From contig NW_013171816.1 of NCBI RefSeq assembly GCF_000151665.1, positions 1,064,204 to 1,128,203 of the forward strand: a stretch of DNA of 64,000 nt, in the 5' to 3' direction. Both the position numbers and the translations under genes were made by a program. Below are positions 15,446 to 59,554 of the stretch, in pieces. Positions within the stretch are counted from its first letter, which is position 1. Each line of letters begins with the position of its first letter. Source of the stretch: Blastocystis hominis (lineage: Eukaryota; Sar; Bigyra; Opalinata; Blastocystidae). The notes below the pieces were generated by a model. The model was not told the DNA's origin. It did not search any database and worked only from the letters and a program-made list of their open reading frames with translations.

Positions 15446-15554
15446 AATGAAAATGTATGAAAGATTCACGAAAAACTGGAATTCCAAAAATTCTCGACAT
15501 TTCAATTTCGTTTGGAATGTGTAAAAACAAACACGATAACGCTCCTATCGCTCG

Positions 15555-16601
15555 CTACGTCTGCTTTCCGAAACACTACAATAGAGATACAACACTCCAC
15601 GTACTATCACAATCGGCTTCTCCTTCAGCAAATATCCATTCACTGTAACCAACGCTTCGCGCGCCAACTCCACCGAAGGGAACGTAATAAACGCCTGGCC
15701 ACGCATCCTGCCTTCCATAATGCGGATCTCCAGTTTCCTACACTTCATCTCCATCTCCACCGTGTACGCGCTGGCTTCCTCGTCACTATCGAAAAAGCAT
15801 CCAAATAGGCGAAGCAAATCGTCCGCTGTCACGTCCTTCGCCATATTTCGCAGATACAGCTTGCAACTCGGATCGCCATAGGAGTAGTTTTTGAAGGCCT
15901 TCTGATGGCTCATCTCTTCTTTGCTGATGCGATGTTTCAGAATATCTTGTAGAGAAACGCAGGAACGAACAGCCGTAGGAGTAGCGAACATGTTCTTGAT
16001 CTCCGACTTGTCCACCGAAATGACTTTCGCCGGCTGTATCAAGGGTGCTTCCTTTGCAGGAGCTGTAGAAGGAGCAGGTGGCTGGATCACCTCGGTCTTA
16101 CTAAATGGATTATCAATGTGAGGTCGTTTGCTATCTAAAGTCTCCTCCTCCTCCTCCTCCTCCTCTTCTTCTTCTTCTTCCTCTCCTAATTGTTGTTGCT
16201 TCTTTTTCACGTTTTCTTCCTTAGCTTCATGGTTTCTCTTCAATACACTCTCTCCATAGGATTTGATCTCATCTTTTATTTGACCTGCTTCAGGCATTGC
16301 TGGACGCTTCCTTGCTGGACCGAAAGGAGGAGGTAAATTCATCTTGTTCATCAAATGAAGCACTTGAGTATATAGTTTGGGCACTGCAATAATGGCTATA
16401 CATAAGCTCGCCTCCGAAAGCTCACCATTTGTGATATTCGTAACGATGGTTTCATTGATTGGGGGATAAGAGTATTCGAGAAGAGGAGATGATGCGTAAT
16501 TAATTCTATAGGTAAAAATCTGAAATCGCATCACACCCCAATTCTGGAGCGATTGGTTCGATCCGCCGTCTCTCCCTCGTCTTCGGTTCCTGCTTGCTCA
16601 T
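15555..16601 (-). CDS. RNPC3: U11/U12 snRNP 65K protein (RNPC3), minor spliceosome
   Basis: Three exons (introns 15576-15604, 16506-16536). The central block YTQVLHLMNKMNLPPPFGP and the RISKEEM motif preceding the last RRM are hallmark RNPC3 sequence. The C-terminal RRM (LYLRNMAKDVTADDL, GRMRGQAFITFP, VNGYLLKEKPIVIC) is the domain that binds the 3' hairpin of U12 snRNA in other eukaryotes. The N-terminal RRM of human 65K, which contacts U11-59K, is missing: only about 23 residues precede the central block. A run of Glu follows the central block. RNPC3 is specific to the minor (U12-type) spliceosome, so its presence implies that this spliceosome exists here. The start ATG at 16601 lies only about 10 bases from the upstream gene's TGTTTGTT motif. 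Confidence 0.9.
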
Positions 16602-16671
16602 AGTGTCGAGGAACAAACACTGATCAATAACAAAAAACAAATCACTCTAATTGCGAGAGATGCGAACACCT

Positions 16672-18128
16672 CTACGCCACGAAATCATTCTGACCGACTT
16701 CTCCCTCCGCCACTGTTCCATTCGGACGGTTAATCGCATAGAGCGTTTCCCCATCGATCAAAATGCATCCACACAACGCGTTTCCATTTCGAAGTCCCTA
16801 CTCCTCAGTCCTCTCTTCCTCCGCGTCCTACACCCGATGTACTACAAATCGCGATATCGCGCGCGTCCTTCCCCACGGAAACGCCCTCCATCGTCGAATC
16901 CTGTCCCCGAAGCACGTGCGTCAGACCGTTTCCCGCCAAAAACCGACGAACCGCGCTTTCTCCCTCCCCCGAGCCCCCGCACGCGCCCTCCTCCCCCGTC
17001 CCCGCGGGACGCGGCCACAACAAATCCGCCACTAACTCGCTGGTCTCCAGATCGTCCGATTCCCGCGGGTCCGACTGCGCCGAATCCTTGGAGGGGTCGA
17101 AGGGCGCGGGAATCCGCCGGATCTGGGCGATGGAGCGCGGCGATCGGTCGCGGTGAGGCCGCGGCACGCCGCCGTGAACGCAGAACAGAACGTCGTCGAT
17201 AACCGCGGCAAGCGGGAGGTGGTCGAAGACTTGGTTGGTGCGGTCCCAGAGCTAGGAGGAACGTGGAAACGTGGAAACGTACGGTGAGAGCGAGGTCTTC
17301 GGGGAAACGGGATCGAAGCTGATCGAGAAAAGAAGAGAGCGGAGAAGACAGAGAACCGCTCTAGAGGTCGAGTGGAAACGTGGAAACGGGTACGTTGACG
17401 GACCGAATCTCATGGTTTCCACGAAGAAGAAACACTTTGTCATGGAACATGATCTTCTGGGAGAAGAGGTAGGAGAGCAGCTCCAGGTCGAAGAGGCCCC
17501 CGTCGACGTAGTCGCCGAGGAAGAGAAAAGTGCCCGGAGTGAGATGAATGCCGAGTGGCCACAATGTGCGAGCGAATGCGAGGAGGTCGGCTAGGTTGCC
17601 GTGGAAATCTCCAAAAACATACGCTGGGGATTTGAGTTGTAAAAGACGGGGCTCCGCGGAGAGGATATTGCCTAATGAAGAGATGGAGATGCTTCGTACA
17701 CATTTCCTCACATAGAAACAGATATTGGTAAACAAAATCATGTGATGAGAAAAAGGCGTTTGGGAGGGGAGCGTAACACTGTTGAACAATACTCTCCAAA
17801 TAACTATTGTCATCTTCATTTAAAGAATCAAGGATATCAGAGGATGAAATGCTGGCAGATCTAGATGATATGCATGATGCCGCACTTACCGAGCCAAGTG
17901 GCGTTTAGCCAGACCATTTCGAAAGAAAGTGTATAGAGTCGGGGCGATGGTGAAGTTCTTCTTGGACCTCTTCTCCATGCCTTCCGTTCTTCCCAACGCT
18001 GAACGGAGTTGAATTATTTCGTTCATCATCTGGCAACACTGGAGGCAGGTCTTAAAGTGGTCCCCGGCCATGTTGCAGTGGTGTCTTCCTGATTTAGAAT
18101 TGTTTGCTTCGTTTCTAGGATAATCCAT
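16672..18128 (-). CDS. PPP-family phosphatase homologue with degenerate active site
   Basis: Six exons (introns 16798-16831, 17252-17282, 17361-17393, 17672-17699, 17861-17889). PPP landmarks in order: FGDFHGN, LGDYVDGG, LRGNHE, FCVHGGV, DLLWPRP, VLRGQDSTMEG, CILIDGETL. In active PP1/PP2A enzymes the second motif is GDYVDRG, and the late motif is RAH with a metal-binding His. Here the Arg is Gly and the His is Gln. The phosphate-binding Arg that follows the DLLW motif in PP1 is also not apparent. Five of six metal ligands remain. This looks like a pseudophosphatase or a very weak enzyme. The N-terminal about 95 residues (start at 18128) match nothing I know. Two introns share the GTTTCCACGTTTCCAC unit. 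Confidence 0.82.
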
Positions 18129-18363
18129 AAAGAAGCGAAAGTAAGTCGATGTACAGAATGGAATAGATAATATTACTTGAATTACTTCCGAGAAAGTAAT
18201 TACTGGTCCAAATTAGAAAACACTTTTCTTTGAAATGACTAATCTGGGAGTTTCAGAAATGCGAATCGCACAATTCATACAGCAATCGTGTTTTCAAGCA
18301 AACAAACTCGGTATTTGCACGATTATTATCCATGACAACGCCCGTACAGACACTTGGAAGAAA

Positions 18364-18926
18364 TCACAGATCGGGGCGTTTCACATCAAAAGAGTCTAAA
18401 AACGATTGGAGAATAATGGCGGCAGCATTTTCGTCCTTCTTTCGCAATCCTCTGTTCCAGTCTCGCTTCTTCTGATACCGGTAGTCGTCCATAGCCATTT
18501 GGGTACTCCCCCATTCATCCTCAAACACAACTGGCATGGGCATTTCGGTATGATTCCAAAACTCGTGAATAAACAATTTGACATCTTCACACTGAATAGA
18601 TTCTTCTCCACTCTCCAAAAGTGGCAGTCCCACAACCTATCACTCACCACTCCGACACTCTTCTACAAATGCAAAGGTTCGATACTGCTGCACGAGCTTT
18701 ATTAGTGGGTTGGATTTAAATGGACGTAAACCTACTCTTGACGTAACTTCGCAAAATAACAATCGGTGCGGAGTAGCGTCCCTTGTGGGAGTGCAAGCGT
18801 GAGTGTTGGATCGGAAAGAGCGACTCCAACAAAAGTTGTTCCCACATCCAATCCTAACAATCTAGGTCGTATGTGGGCTACCTTGGAATATAGCGATTGC
18901 AACTGTTTTACAGTCAACACCGCCAT
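18364..18926 (-). CDS. YqgF/RuvX-fold putative nuclease
   Basis: Three exons (introns 18637-18666, 18732-18760). RNase H-like YqgF features: LLGLDVGTTFVGVALSD (first acidic residue), FVVGLPLLESGEES, and a C-terminal KKDENAAAIILQSFLD helix with the last acidic residue. The bacterial family processes rRNA precursors or Holliday junctions. In eukaryotes such copies are usually organellar, so a role in the mitochondrion-related organelle is possible. I cannot see a clear targeting peptide; the start MAVLTVKQLQSLYSKV is weakly amphipathic. TGA at 18364-18366; a TTTGTTTGC motif lies downstream on the minus strand (about 18299-18308). Confidence 0.78.
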
Positions 18927-19005
18927 TCTGCCAAATTATCGACTATTTTTGGAAAATAGAAAATTGTTCATTCAGTGTGTCAACGCGCGTTGCTAGTCGA
19001 GTACA

Positions 19006-21453
19006 ATGTTTCGAAAGCAAGCCAAGGTGTTCTGGATTGTGTTTTTGCTAAGTTTGTTATTCTGTGTGAATGGAGTGGAGTCTGAAGCATCCTATTATAA
19101 ATTCCCTATCTACTGGAAACGACTGAACAATTCCGAGTTTGAGTCCATTTATGGTAGGAAGCTCCACGACTACTTGTCATTATTTCCTACATATGGTGAC
19201 TCAAAGAAAATTGGGTAAATAATAGTGATTTGCACTGATCATCAGATACTTTTATTCACTGATTTACGTAGGAACTCCACCACAACGACAGACTGTGATT
19301 CTAGATACAGGAAGTAGCATTTTGGCGTTTCCCTGCGATTCGTGAGTTCTGCTTTGTTTTTTAACTGTAAGTTGTACTACGTGCGGAACTCATCAAAACC
19401 ATCCGTTTGCTCCATCCCTATCGAAAACGATCCGAATATCCTTCGTTCCAACTAAATAGTTTTTTCTTCACTCTACTCTGTGCGGTGCAACGAAACGACC
19501 TATCGTGGGAGATGTTCAATTTGTAAGGATGGGGTTTGTCACTTTACTCAGGTACCAGTTCGATCGTATTTTTACATAGTCCTATCTGGAAGGAAGTCAT
19601 CTAAGCGGTCCGCTCTTTTGGGACACGGTTTGGCTAGGAGGCAACATTCCGACATCTGCGCACGTTCCGCTGGGCGACAGCGCGTCCTTCTCTTCCTACG
19701 GAGTCTACCATCAATTCGGCTGCTTTACCGTCTCCGGCGGGCTCTTCAAGTCCCAACTCGCCGATGGCATCATCGGCCTCGCTCCCCGCGGTAGGTTTCC
19801 CCGTTTCCCCCTCCCTCAGAGATGTCGTTCATCGGCAGTTTCCAAAAACACATCCACGCGCTGCGCGCGGCGAACCCGCAGAGCGCCATCCGCGAAATGT
19901 TCGGGTTTTGCTTCATCGAGGGCGGGGGTTTCATGACGCTGGGCGGCATGGACGCCGCCGCGCCGCTTCGCCCGCTCTGCTGGACGCATTTCTCCTCCAT
20001 GGAGCGGTACTTCCGCGTGTTCACCGCGGGGATTTTCATCGGCTCCCAGAGGGCGTTTCGCGATCTCGGAAAGTGGAATTCGTAGAAACGGGGAAGGCGT
20101 TTCATGCAGGATGGGCGGCATCATGATCGACAGCGGTTCCACGTTTTCCTATCTGATTTCCAGCGAGTATCGGGTTTTTGTGCAGGCGTTTCACTCCGCG
20201 CTGGGCGAAGCGCTCCGCCGCGCAAACCGCACTTTCCCCGCGGTGAAGCGTCTACGCGTAGGAATGGTGGAATCGTGGAAGGTAGGAACACGACTGCTTC
20301 CGACTGGGTTCCGCGGGGGATCTGTCGCTGTTCCCCGCGGTAAAAATCGCGCTGGGCGCGGACTGCGCGCTGGAAGTGGCCGGGAGGTTCTACATGTTCC
20401 AGGCGGAGGGCTCGGTGTATTGCCTGGGCGTGTACTCGGATCCGTCGACGGTGATCGGAAATAACTTCCTGCAGGGACAGAGCGTCGTGTTCGACCTCGA
20501 GAAGAGACGATGGGGAGTCGGCGTGGCGAATATATCCGATTTGGAGGGAATTGGGGTCCTTTACGCACTGTAGCGCCAACGAAGCTATTCAGATGCAGAA
20601 TCATGAGGACATCACGCTCCCGCTGGCAAAGCGGAAAGAAAAGGATGGGAGACAACCCGCGGAGACGAAGAAGGCGGTTCAGAGCGGGAAGGAAACGAGC
20701 GCGAGCAAAACGGAAGAGAAGGGGAAGGATGGCAAGGCCACTCGGGATTCGACTGTTTCGATTGTTTCCGAATTGCAAAACGCAAATCTCACCGAAATCA
20801 AGCCTGGTCACGTGTCTGCAAACAATATGCAAACCATTATTCATAAAACCCAGCAAATTGCGAAGAATACCAATAAATTACTCAAGCCAGAGCGAGGAGA
20901 GAGTGCTTCGTCGGCAGAGAGGGCCGTCCTACCCTCCAGCAACGATCTATCAAGTTCTGTCACACATAATAGAACCGCGGGAATAAATAAAAATTTGACA
21001 GCATTGGTGGCGGATAATCAGATAGAGGAGAGCTATTTCGTTGTGAACAAGGGACAGCTGAGATTACCGAGGGTAGCGAAGGTGTCGGATGACACATTGA
21101 GGAATTGTAGGGTAATTTCATGTACACTGTTTATAGGGTTACTGGTGAACGTCTCTCTCATTCTCTCTGTGTGTTTTATATTTTTCTTAGTAGTCAAATA
21201 TTCATTTTTTCATACTTGTTATATACATATTATTAAGTTAATAAAAATGGGTAATCGATTGGTTACAGGATCTACTCACGAAAGCTCAGATAGCAAAATC
21301 CTGGGGCCAAGCGGTGCTGGTTCGGCTCAACCGCAGACTGAAGAATCGTCCACCTTAGGAAACGCGACCAACGTTTTCGACACTGGAGAAGATTGTAACC
21401 ATGTGGGAAATTCCCTGTTTAACTTGACTTTCCTAGAACGGATACATTATTGA
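19006..21453 (+). CDS. membrane-anchored aspartic protease (plasmepsin V/ASP-like)
   Basis: Signal peptide (FWIVFLLSLLFCVNG), then a pepsin-fold protease. First catalytic motif VILDTGSS, a nepenthesin-type Cys-rich insert (CTTCGTHQ, RCSICKDGVCHF), SYLEGS flap, LADGIIGLAPR, second catalytic motif IMIDSGSTFSYL and VIGNNFLQGQSVVFDLEKRRWG. Conventional introns: 19215-19245, 19342-19371 (ends AAG), 19552-19579, 19791-19819, 20073-20109, 20258-20285, 20556-20592. One more (19436-19476) fits only as an AT-AC intron. After the last intron comes a charged linker, one strong transmembrane helix (about 21118-21210) and a polar cytoplasmic tail to TGA at 21451-21453. The architecture resembles ER or Golgi-anchored proteases such as plasmepsin V; the substrate is unknown. 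The join to the C-terminal tail is less certain than the protease part. Confidence 0.82.
19436..19476 (+). other. putative AT-AC (U12-type) intron of 41 nt
   Basis: Between exon codons encoding LSKTIR and SVRCNETT no GT-AG intron restores the frame: the only two GT donors upstream of the TAG give the wrong phase or a 15-nt intron. The segment starts ATATCCTT, an exact U12-type 5' splice signal, and ends TTCACTCTAC. It contains TTCCAACTAA about 22 nt before the end, a partial match to the U12 branch site TTCCTTAAC. Removing it joins the exons in phase 0 and restores the expected protease Cys cluster. Confidence 0.6.
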
Positions 21454-45985: not shown

Positions 45986-46287
45986 TCACTCGAAATCCAC
46001 AATGGTACCGTCAAATTCTCCAGGTTGTGTATCGATGCCGTCCAGAAACTTGGAAAATCGGTACCACGTTAAGAACTCCACAGCTCCACAATAAGGATAT
46101 ATTTTCTTTTTTCTCTGGTTCAGTAGATGAAGAATTGGCGTTCGGATCCACTTCTTGTGACACTGGAACTGGGTTTGCTGGCGCTTCCGTTGGCGTAAAT
46201 TCTGTTTGTCATACGACACAGGAATCACACACCTTGACCCCAGTCTTCATCTCCATCGGATTCTTCTAAAACAAACAAATTGCTCAT
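45986..46287 (-). CDS. possible small acidic protein, unrecognised
   Basis: Between TBC1D23 and the Tubby-like gene. One reading gives MSNLFVLEESDGDEDWGQ, a 31-nt intron, a Pro/Ser/Glu-rich stretch, a second intron ending CAAG, then FLDGIDTQPGEFDGTIVDFE and TGA 45986-45988. A competing reading keeps another frame and gives a basic protein with the same end. The TTTGTTTGTTTT at about 46268-46280 may instead be the 3' motif of the Tubby-like gene. Low confidence. Confidence 0.3.
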
Positions 46288-57848: not shown

Positions 57849-59554
57849 ATGGAAGATTCTATTTCGATTATGGAAAATGATGCTCAAGATAAGAAGCGAG
57901 AGCTTTCCGCAATTAGAAAGCAACAAAAGTAGAGCAGTGGGAGAGAGATGCGACCTATAGACTTGAGAAGAAAATGAAGAAAAAGGCACTCGGAGCAAAT
58001 GAACGAGATGAATCAAAATGGCCAAAATGTCTATTTTGGATAGCTAAGTGTGCACGCTTCTGTTCTGGAGAAAGAGCACCGGGAAGCAAATACTGTATCA
58101 ACCATATTCATATGGACCCATCGTATACTCCGCCAAACGACGCCACGTCGAGAAAACGAGTGGTTTGCCCGATCGATCCTTCTCATACGGTATTCGAAGA
58201 CAAACTAAGCAAACACATTAAAATTTGTAATAAGTCGAAACAAACACAACAAAAGCAGCAATGTCCGTATTACGTCGAGAATTTCAACTGTGGTTCTGAA
58301 GTTCAACACGAATCGCCGGCCTTCGATTCCCAAGAAGCCGTTTTTTTTCTTGTTCACGATTTCACAGTTAGAAGCAGCTCTTCGAGGAGCAGTTGGAGCG
58401 AAAGATTCGTTCTGTGTATCATGAGCTCTTTCCCAACGGCATCCCCATGCATGCTCTTCGCCCCGCTTCCTTTGATCCCTTTATTGCAGATAAAGCAGAA
58501 CGCGGAGCCACACAGGACTCGCTTCGCCATCTTTATCAGCAAGTGAGCATGATCAGCAACATGCAAGAGAAGTATGTTATCATTTTTTCCCTCCATTCAA
58601 CATCAGAAATCTCATCAATGAGGACTTTGTATTCGTTGAGTTTGGAGCCGGTAGAGGCATGCTCAGTCTCGGAATCGACTTCTGTTTAAACGGCGAAGTG
58701 GCGAATGAATCCAAGCCAAAATCCACCGATTCCCGCGGCAAGTATCTGCTCCTGGACATTTCGCCTGTCCGCTTCAAAGCAGATCGCTGGCTTCGCCACA
58801 AAGAATCGAATTTCAGTCGAGTTACGGGGAATATTCGCGATCTTGACCTGAGCAAAATACCCATTTTTTCTGTCAATGGAAACCAGAAGTTTGTGGGAAT
58901 CGCGAAGCATTTGTGTGGCGTTGCGACGGACTACACGATTCGGTGCGTTTTGAATGGGATGCAGAGCGGACTGGAGGTACATTGCGCGATGTCGTTGTTA
59001 GTAGTGTGTCGGCGTTTGCATTGCGACATGTTGTCACCATCGCTGTCAGTGGCACAGTTTCGTCGGACACGCGTTCTACAAGGCGCTGGTAAGCGAAAAA
59101 ACATAAAAAATGAATGAAAGGGATTCGAGGAAAAAGAGTGGGATTTTCTTCGCCGATTAACGAGCTGGGCGACGAGCACGGTGTGCATGGAGTGAGTGTG
59201 TGATGTAGAGTAAAGAGCATTCCTCAAGAGAAAAAGAGGAAAAGAAGAGGGAGGGAAAAGAAGAAGAAGATGAGAAGTGTTGTGTTAAGGAAGAGATGTT
59301 GACCTACAATTCTGTTAAAATCGATTTTATTAAGTGTGTTTTTAAAGGAGTGGAATGACGAAAAGACTTGATCCCGAATTAGGTCGCATGTCGAAACGAA
59401 TCATCGATTATTGCAGAAGCAAATTCATTGAGCAGGAAATAAACAGCATTTTGAAAGAGAAAGGAAGAGAAGATCGCTTTCATTCCGAACTTGTTTCCTA
59501 TTGTGAGGAGAAGGAAAGTGTGGAGAACTGTATTATACTGGGATGGTTAAATTG
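57849..59554 (+). CDS. TRMT13: TRM13 tRNA 2'-O-methyltransferase (CHHC zinc finger)
   Basis: About eight exons. N-terminal CCCH-type region CLFWIAKCARFCSGERAPGS, CHHC finger VVCPIDPSHTVFEDKLSKHI, then SAM site FVFVEFGAGRGMLSLGI, FVGIAKHLCGVATDYTIRCV and the catalytic block GVCIATCCHHRCQWHSFVG, ending SWATST, a Lys/Glu linker and DPELGRMSKRIIDYCRS with KESVENCIILGW. TRM13 methylates position 4 of tRNA acceptor stems. The frame reaches TTAAATTG at 59554 and TGTTTGTT starts four bases later, so poly(A) would create TGA. The RNase H2A start codon lies only about 25 bases further. The junctions near 59117-59355 are the least certain. Confidence 0.88.

Follow-up and report, generated by a model that had tools for sequence, protein, structure and literature searches.

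We analyzed a 64,000-nt stretch of the Blastocystis hominis genome (contig NW_013171816.1, positions 1,064,204 to 1,128,203; hereafter the window), which corresponds to C2:1064204-1128203 in the genome searched here (18,707,701 bases in 40 contigs). The window carries a gene for the U11/U12-65K protein of the minor spliceosome (RNPC3; hereafter 65K) and, less than 3 kb away, a gene for a plasmepsin-V-like aspartic protease (Table 1). The protease gene has seven introns. On the sequence evidence assembled below, the gene is intact and the intron at 19436-19476 is very probably of the U12 type (AT-AC), removed by a minor spliceosome that the same genome encodes.

The protease gene and its probable 41-nt AT-AC intron

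An initial annotation of this sequence had pointed out that the 41 bases at 19436-19476 begin with an exact U12 donor and end in AC, which the letters confirm. The donor ATATCCTT at 19436 is an exact match to the U12 consensus RTATCCTT, and the 3' end, TAC, fits the YAC/YAG criterion. The branch-like stretch TTTCTTCAC agrees with TTCCTTRAC at seven of nine places by eye and stops 5 nt before the end of the intron.

Removal of these bases had been predicted to restore the phase and a Cys-rich motif, and the alignments agree. The spliced protein runs without gaps across the junction both against its ortholog in Blastocystis ST1 (P0121; 57% identity) and against plasmepsin V, the junction residues being SLSKTIR/SVRCNETTYRG in the window and RLSRTIR/PVGCNEQTYKG in P0121 (the slash marks the junction). 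Plasmepsin V (4zl4, E 1e-21) is the top solved-structure match of the protease, with the Cys-rich segment included, and the two closest named relatives are Blastocystis proteins of ST1 and ST4. While the Blastocystis gene has this segment in common with plasmepsin V-type proteases, its product shows 24 to 29% identity to the six aligned relatives other than P0121-P0123.

A metagenomic translation, P0123, reads through the junction site in a frame other than that of the protein. Its codons, counted by hand from the amino acids, fit a 40-nt intron that starts with ATATCCTT and ends with TCNAC. Therefore, the interior of the intron appears to vary in length while the flanking protein is kept. P0123 also bears on whether the junction is a frameshift, due to an assembly error or a broken gene, rather than an intron. 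The window sequence does come from a single assembly; however, P0123 fits the same ends at a length differing by one base, and it is hard to see how an error could produce a perfect U12 donor with an AC end 41 bases from it at just the point where the relatives align ungapped. We consider a frameshift extremely unlikely.

All introns of at least 19 nt were enumerated in the tested stretch for six kinds of donor/acceptor pairs. The frame is restored by 34 pairs (14 AT-AC, 7 GT-AC, 6 AT-AG, 4 GA-AG, 2 GT-AG, and 1 GC-AG). The claim that no GT-AG intron can explain the junction does not hold on frame alone: GT-AG pairs of 107 and 131 nt restore the frame, as do the GC-AG pair (77 nt) and the GA-AG pairs (26 to 89 nt); these and the other competing introns are disfavored on homology, not on frame. 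Three of the 34 pairs are 41 nt long, which preserves the length of P0121. Of these, 19436-19476 alone preserves the P0121 residues as well; 19456-19496 and 19459-19499 replace SVRCNE and were ruled out. When every 41-nt removal starting from 19421 to 19451 is considered (n = 31), one is AT-AC and none is GT-AG, GC-AG, or GA-AG.

If the major spliceosome removed one of the longer GT-AG introns (107 nt, 19405-19511, or 131 nt, 19381-19511), the protein would lack the segment between. Both leave an open frame, but they delete FAPSLSKTIRSVRCNETTYRG or more, which has counterparts in the ST1 ortholog and in plasmepsin V, and they are long compared with the modal intron length of 30 bp reported for the genus (PMC5608401); such a junction is very unlikely. 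The use of a GA-AG intron can be weighed in the same way. GA-AG introns have been reported in Blastocystis (59 in ST1 and 9 in ST7; PMC5608401), and all four candidates give an open frame here. However, the most likely of them, at 19434-19459, is shorter (26 nt) than the usual 30 nt and adds five residues (SKTILFSSLYSVRC) where the aligned in-frame relatives have no insertion, whereas the three longer ones delete conserved residues. Accordingly, a GA-AG junction is exceedingly improbable.

Table 1. Features of the window (positions are those of the window)
Feature	Position	Strand	Description
U11/U12-65K (RNPC3) gene	15555..16601	-	308 aa in five exons; its one RRM is C-terminal, with none at the N terminus
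65K intron 1	16506..16536	-	GT-AG, 31 nt; removal restores the aligned PIAPELGINY...YPP block
65K intron 2	16396..16425	-	GT-AG, 30 nt; removal restores TNITN/AIIAVPKLYTQVLHLMNKMN
65K intron 3	15738..15767	-	GT-AG, 30 nt; within the C-terminal RRM
65K intron 4	15576..15604	-	GT-AG, 29 nt
Plasmepsin-V-like aspartic protease gene	19006..20573	+	Eight exons, 447 aa, seven introns
Protease intron 1	19215..19245	+	GT-AG, 31 nt
Protease intron 2	19342..19371	+	GT-AG, 30 nt
Probable U12-type AT-AC intron	19436..19476	+	41 nt; donor ATATCCTT, branch-like TTTCTTCAC at 19463-19471, end CTCTAC
Protease intron 4	19552..19579	+	GT-AG, 28 nt
Protease intron 5	19791..19819	+	GT-AG, 29 nt
Protease intron 6	20073..20109	+	GT-AG, 37 nt
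Protease intron 7	20258..20285	+	GT-AG, 28 nt
Second AT-AC candidate intron	46061..46100	-	40 nt, branch-like TTCTTAAC; its removal connects two open stretches
TRM13 tRNA methyltransferase gene	57917-59117	+	CHHC finger, CCCH finger, TRM13 domain

Minor-spliceosome components and other U12-type introns

The initial annotation had proposed that the genome be checked for the four minor small nuclear RNAs (snRNAs) and for similar introns elsewhere. We searched it with snRNA and protein models, using 14 control genomes for both. Three of the snRNAs were found above the Rfam gathering score: U6atac (61.6 bits; C4:154865-154981), U12 (64.6 bits; C6:173891-174036), and U11 (49.5 bits; C2:1061533-1061659). 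The fourth, U4atac, fell below it (see below). The U12 gene retains GUAAGGAAA, which we take to be the stretch that pairs with the branch site, and the U11 gene retains AAAAGGG near its 5' end. No control genome has an over-cut-off match for any of the four; at a lax E of 10, below-cut-off matches occurred in 11 (U6atac), 7 (U12), 3 (U11), and 11 (U4atac) of the controls. In the window itself, an Rfam scan found no family at its gathering score. Among the proteins, CENATAC, which is required for AT-AN introns (PMC11039992), is represented by two stretches above the cut-off on C40 and has no match in the controls (0 of 14).

To find further introns, the pattern RTATCCTTN{5,35}CCTTRAC was run against the genome, with its reversed form as a control. 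It gave 21 matches, compared with 4 for the control, and 20 of the 21 begin with A (an AT start). In 20 of the 21 loci, the distance from CCTTRAC to the end of an AC or AG is 5 or 6 nt; random places drawn from these loci show this in 22.7% of cases (P 2e-12). At the sole exception, L034, neither dinucleotide occurs in the first 12 nt past the branch motif. At CCTTRAC sites without an upstream donor, such an end occurs in three of nine cases. The implied intron lengths, bounded in part by the pattern, are 32 to 55 nt. The protease intron, with 5 nt from TTTCTTCAC to its end, has the same spacing as this set. Spliced peptides were read for 12 of the 21 loci, and 10 of these were sent to Pfam (L028 and L036 were left out). 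A match spanning the junction was obtained for 4 of the 10: LSM12, RRM_5, and MA3 above the cut-off and ERAP1_C below it. Taken together, the snRNAs, 65K, CENATAC, a weak 59K match (see below), and these introns support the earlier suggestion that a minor spliceosome is encoded here.

Counted from the branch A, the Blastocystis spacing is 6 to 7 nt. A study of human and mouse minor introns gives an optimal distance of 11 to 13 nt, although the base counted from may differ (PMC6717393).

Minor introns of Blastocystis have been published before. For ST1, Gentekaki et al. (2017) report 346 U12-type introns in 319 genes, together with all four minor snRNAs and all seven proteins; they state that ST7, too, has recognizable U12-type introns and components, and the 20K, 25K, 31K, and 35K proteins are reported for Blastocystis (PMC5608401). 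Larue and Roy (2023) count 253 minor introns in ST1, 77% of them AT-AC, with a mean just under 42 bp and a median of 39 bp, the shortest average in their dataset (PMC10639083). Because of this median, 41 nt is an ordinary length for Blastocystis; it had been thought to lie near the length limit, which these values do not bear out. Our central result is therefore correct but, in kind, already published, with the single-RRM 65K and the short spacing apparently undescribed. The introns in our set share with those of ST1 and ST7 the predominance of AT-AC and the length class, but the branch-to-3'-end spacing of 5 to 6 nt was not found in the portions of those two texts covered. More generally, the portions of the literature texts covered, figures and supplements aside, hold no earlier description of either feature; the splice logos in Fig. 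1 of PMC5608401 could show the spacing.

Several observations weigh against a U12-type intron removed by an encoded minor spliceosome. (i) U4atac reaches only 42.0 bits (C1:522013-522142; E 6e-5), under the gathering score of 53, and the 59K match (C6:181797-181958) is weak, scoring 20.7 bits where the cut-off is 27, with 0 of 14 controls matching. (ii) The branch site of the protease intron is not CCTTRAC, two of its nine places differing from TTCCTTRAC. (iii) In a background sample of approximately 143 kb, read on both strands, ATATCCTT occurs 15 times, compared with a mean of 7.3 over 60 permutations, one of which occurs 71 times. The donor alone therefore proves little, and our conclusion does not rest on its count. 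(iv) Four of the 10 spliced peptides have no Pfam match and 2 have a domain on one side of the junction only, in a comparison with no unspliced control. (v) Larue and Roy raised the possibility that the ST1 minor introns are false positives, although they went on to accept them as real, and they report that B. hominis has lost 11 of the 12 ST1 minor introns that were aligned (PMC10639083).

An AT-AC intron could also be spliced out by the major spliceosome, which does process some introns of this kind (PMC6717393). In the present case, however, the donor matches the U12 consensus in full, the 3' end is spaced as in the CCTTRAC set, and the genome has U6atac, U12, U11, and CENATAC, which together make major splicing of this intron very unlikely and favor its assignment to the minor spliceosome.

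The finger model for 48K gave over-cut-off candidate fingers on C12 and C38 and was also above the cut-off in 1 of 14 controls, but its top match lies in TRM13. This CHHC finger (58157-58231), the best match in the genome to the U11-48K finger model, was rejected as U11-48K because both the CCCH finger and the domain of TRM13 are found in the gene; it is a trap in 48K searches. As to gene order, U11 lies approximately 2.5 kb to the left of window position 1 and approximately 18 kb from the 65K gene, and on C6, approximately 8 kb separates U12 from the weak match to 59K. Two such neighbor pairs in 18.7 Mb are curious, but they were noticed after the fact.

The 65K protein and its absent first RRM

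The 65K reading frame runs from an ATG at 16601 to a TAG that ends at 15555, with four introns removed from the minus strand. Its top solved-structure match is the C-terminal RRM of 65K/RBM40 (5obn), which covers residues 193-306 and improves from E 3e-21 before intron removal to 8e-25 after; the N-terminal extension of this RRM is present. Alignments with named plant 65K proteins cover up to 99% of the Blastocystis protein, and residues 1-80 contain a block, IAPELG...YPP...LYTQVLHLMNKMNLPPPFG, common to six other aligned proteins. The 120 matches listed are headed by unnamed proteins and include one named protein from Blastocystis, P0038. A genome search for a second 65K gene found none, the only other match being a weak RRM stretch (E 5e-5). 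The coordinates, the 5obn match, and the plant alignments uphold the initial identification of the gene as RNPC3. Judged by these features, the protein is a divergent 65K ortholog: it has the conserved central block, the C-terminal RRM with its extension, and a single gene, but it is not a typical member, as the N-terminal RRM is absent.

RBM41, a paralog of 65K, likewise has only a C-terminal RRM of the same kind, and its N terminus is unrelated to that of 65K (PMC11039992). Because the Blastocystis gene carries the 65K central block, with LYTQVLHLMNKMNLPPPFG and the IAPELG stretch common to 65K proteins, RBM41 was ruled out as its identity.

The lack of an N-terminal RRM, also proposed initially, is borne out by Pfam, which finds a single RRM (residues 228-300) and, in the first 96 residues, no match at E up to 1. 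An N-terminal RRM is also missing from the proteins of Blastocystis sp. Blastoise (P0038) and EukProt (P0022, a transcript labelled complete). Both start just ahead of the block, whose IAP falls at residues 9-10; Pfam finds one RRM in P0038 and one sub-threshold RRM in P0022. Absence of the first RRM is thus seen in the B. hominis genome of the window and in Blastocystis sp. Blastoise. By contrast, an RRM-like start is visible by eye in four oomycete proteins (Phytophthora nicotianae, P. infestans, P. capsici, and Pythium oligandrum), with the IAP-like start of the block at residues 74-154 in the three where it could be located. The P. infestans model is apparently shortened inside the RRM-like stretch. 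RRM_1 scores 17.5 and 17.6 bits on the N-terminal pieces of P. nicotianae and Pythium, below the cut-off of 20.7, and 29.0 bits on that of Balamuthia; Pfam recognizes an N-terminal RRM in the 65K proteins of Balamuthia, one plant, and one glomeromycete. A plant model, P0184 (321 aa), also begins at the block, so that short 65K models need caution; its short start may reflect a truncated annotation or an isoform. Since the RRM is recognizable in oomycetes, there as sub-threshold matches, and absent from Blastocystis 65K, its loss probably occurred on the lineage leading to Blastocystis. A search of the genome for a separate first RRM with one Phytophthora query gave nothing better than E 0.5, but this query is insensitive, because it also missed the other RRMs of the genome (101 matches).

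In human 65K, the N-terminal half, which includes the first RRM, is reported to bind U11-59K (PMC12084885). The initial annotation had assigned this contact to the N-terminal RRM; the RRM does lie in the binding half, but the binder described is the half as a whole. For this reason, loss of the RRM alone need not mean that the 59K contact is lost, and the retained central block may be what matters for it.

Two features adjoin the 65K gene. Approximately 20 nt past its stop codon is TGTTTGTT (15526-15533, minus strand), the motif described for stop codons made by polyadenylation in Blastocystis (PMC5608401). On the other side, 16805-17819 (minus strand) holds a gene whose motifs, judged by eye, give a metallophosphatase (PPP-type) signature; the approximately 200 bp between that gene and the 65K start leave scant space for an extra RRM exon.

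A possible mechanism and its meaning

We infer that 19436-19476 is spliced out in cells by the U12-type spliceosome. In such a process, U11 would pair with ATATCCTT and U12 with the near-consensus branch site TTTCTTCAC, the AC ending 5 nt past the branch motif would serve as the 3' splice site, and catalysis would be carried out by U6atac and U4atac, with CENATAC. The 65K protein would supply the U12-binding portion of the bridge between U11 and U12, in which the block PIAPELG...YPP...LYTQVLHLMNKMNLPPPFG would carry the 59K contact without an N-terminal RRM.

It is conceivable, and we offer this tentatively, as somewhat more doubtful than probable, that the Blastocystis minor spliceosome is a stripped-down one, bridging through the central block alone and using 3' sites nearly fixed at 5 to 6 nt past the branch, about half the mammalian optimum, and that the two features together permit U12-type introns of approximately 40 nt.

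Our findings lend independent support, from sequence, to a Blastocystis minor spliceosome that handles introns of approximately 40 nt. They add two testable details on the minimal size of the intron and of the bridge protein, namely, a 65K without its N-terminal RRM and a spacing of 5 to 6 nt. The short 65K would be a natural deletion, informative on where in 65K the U11-59K contact lies.

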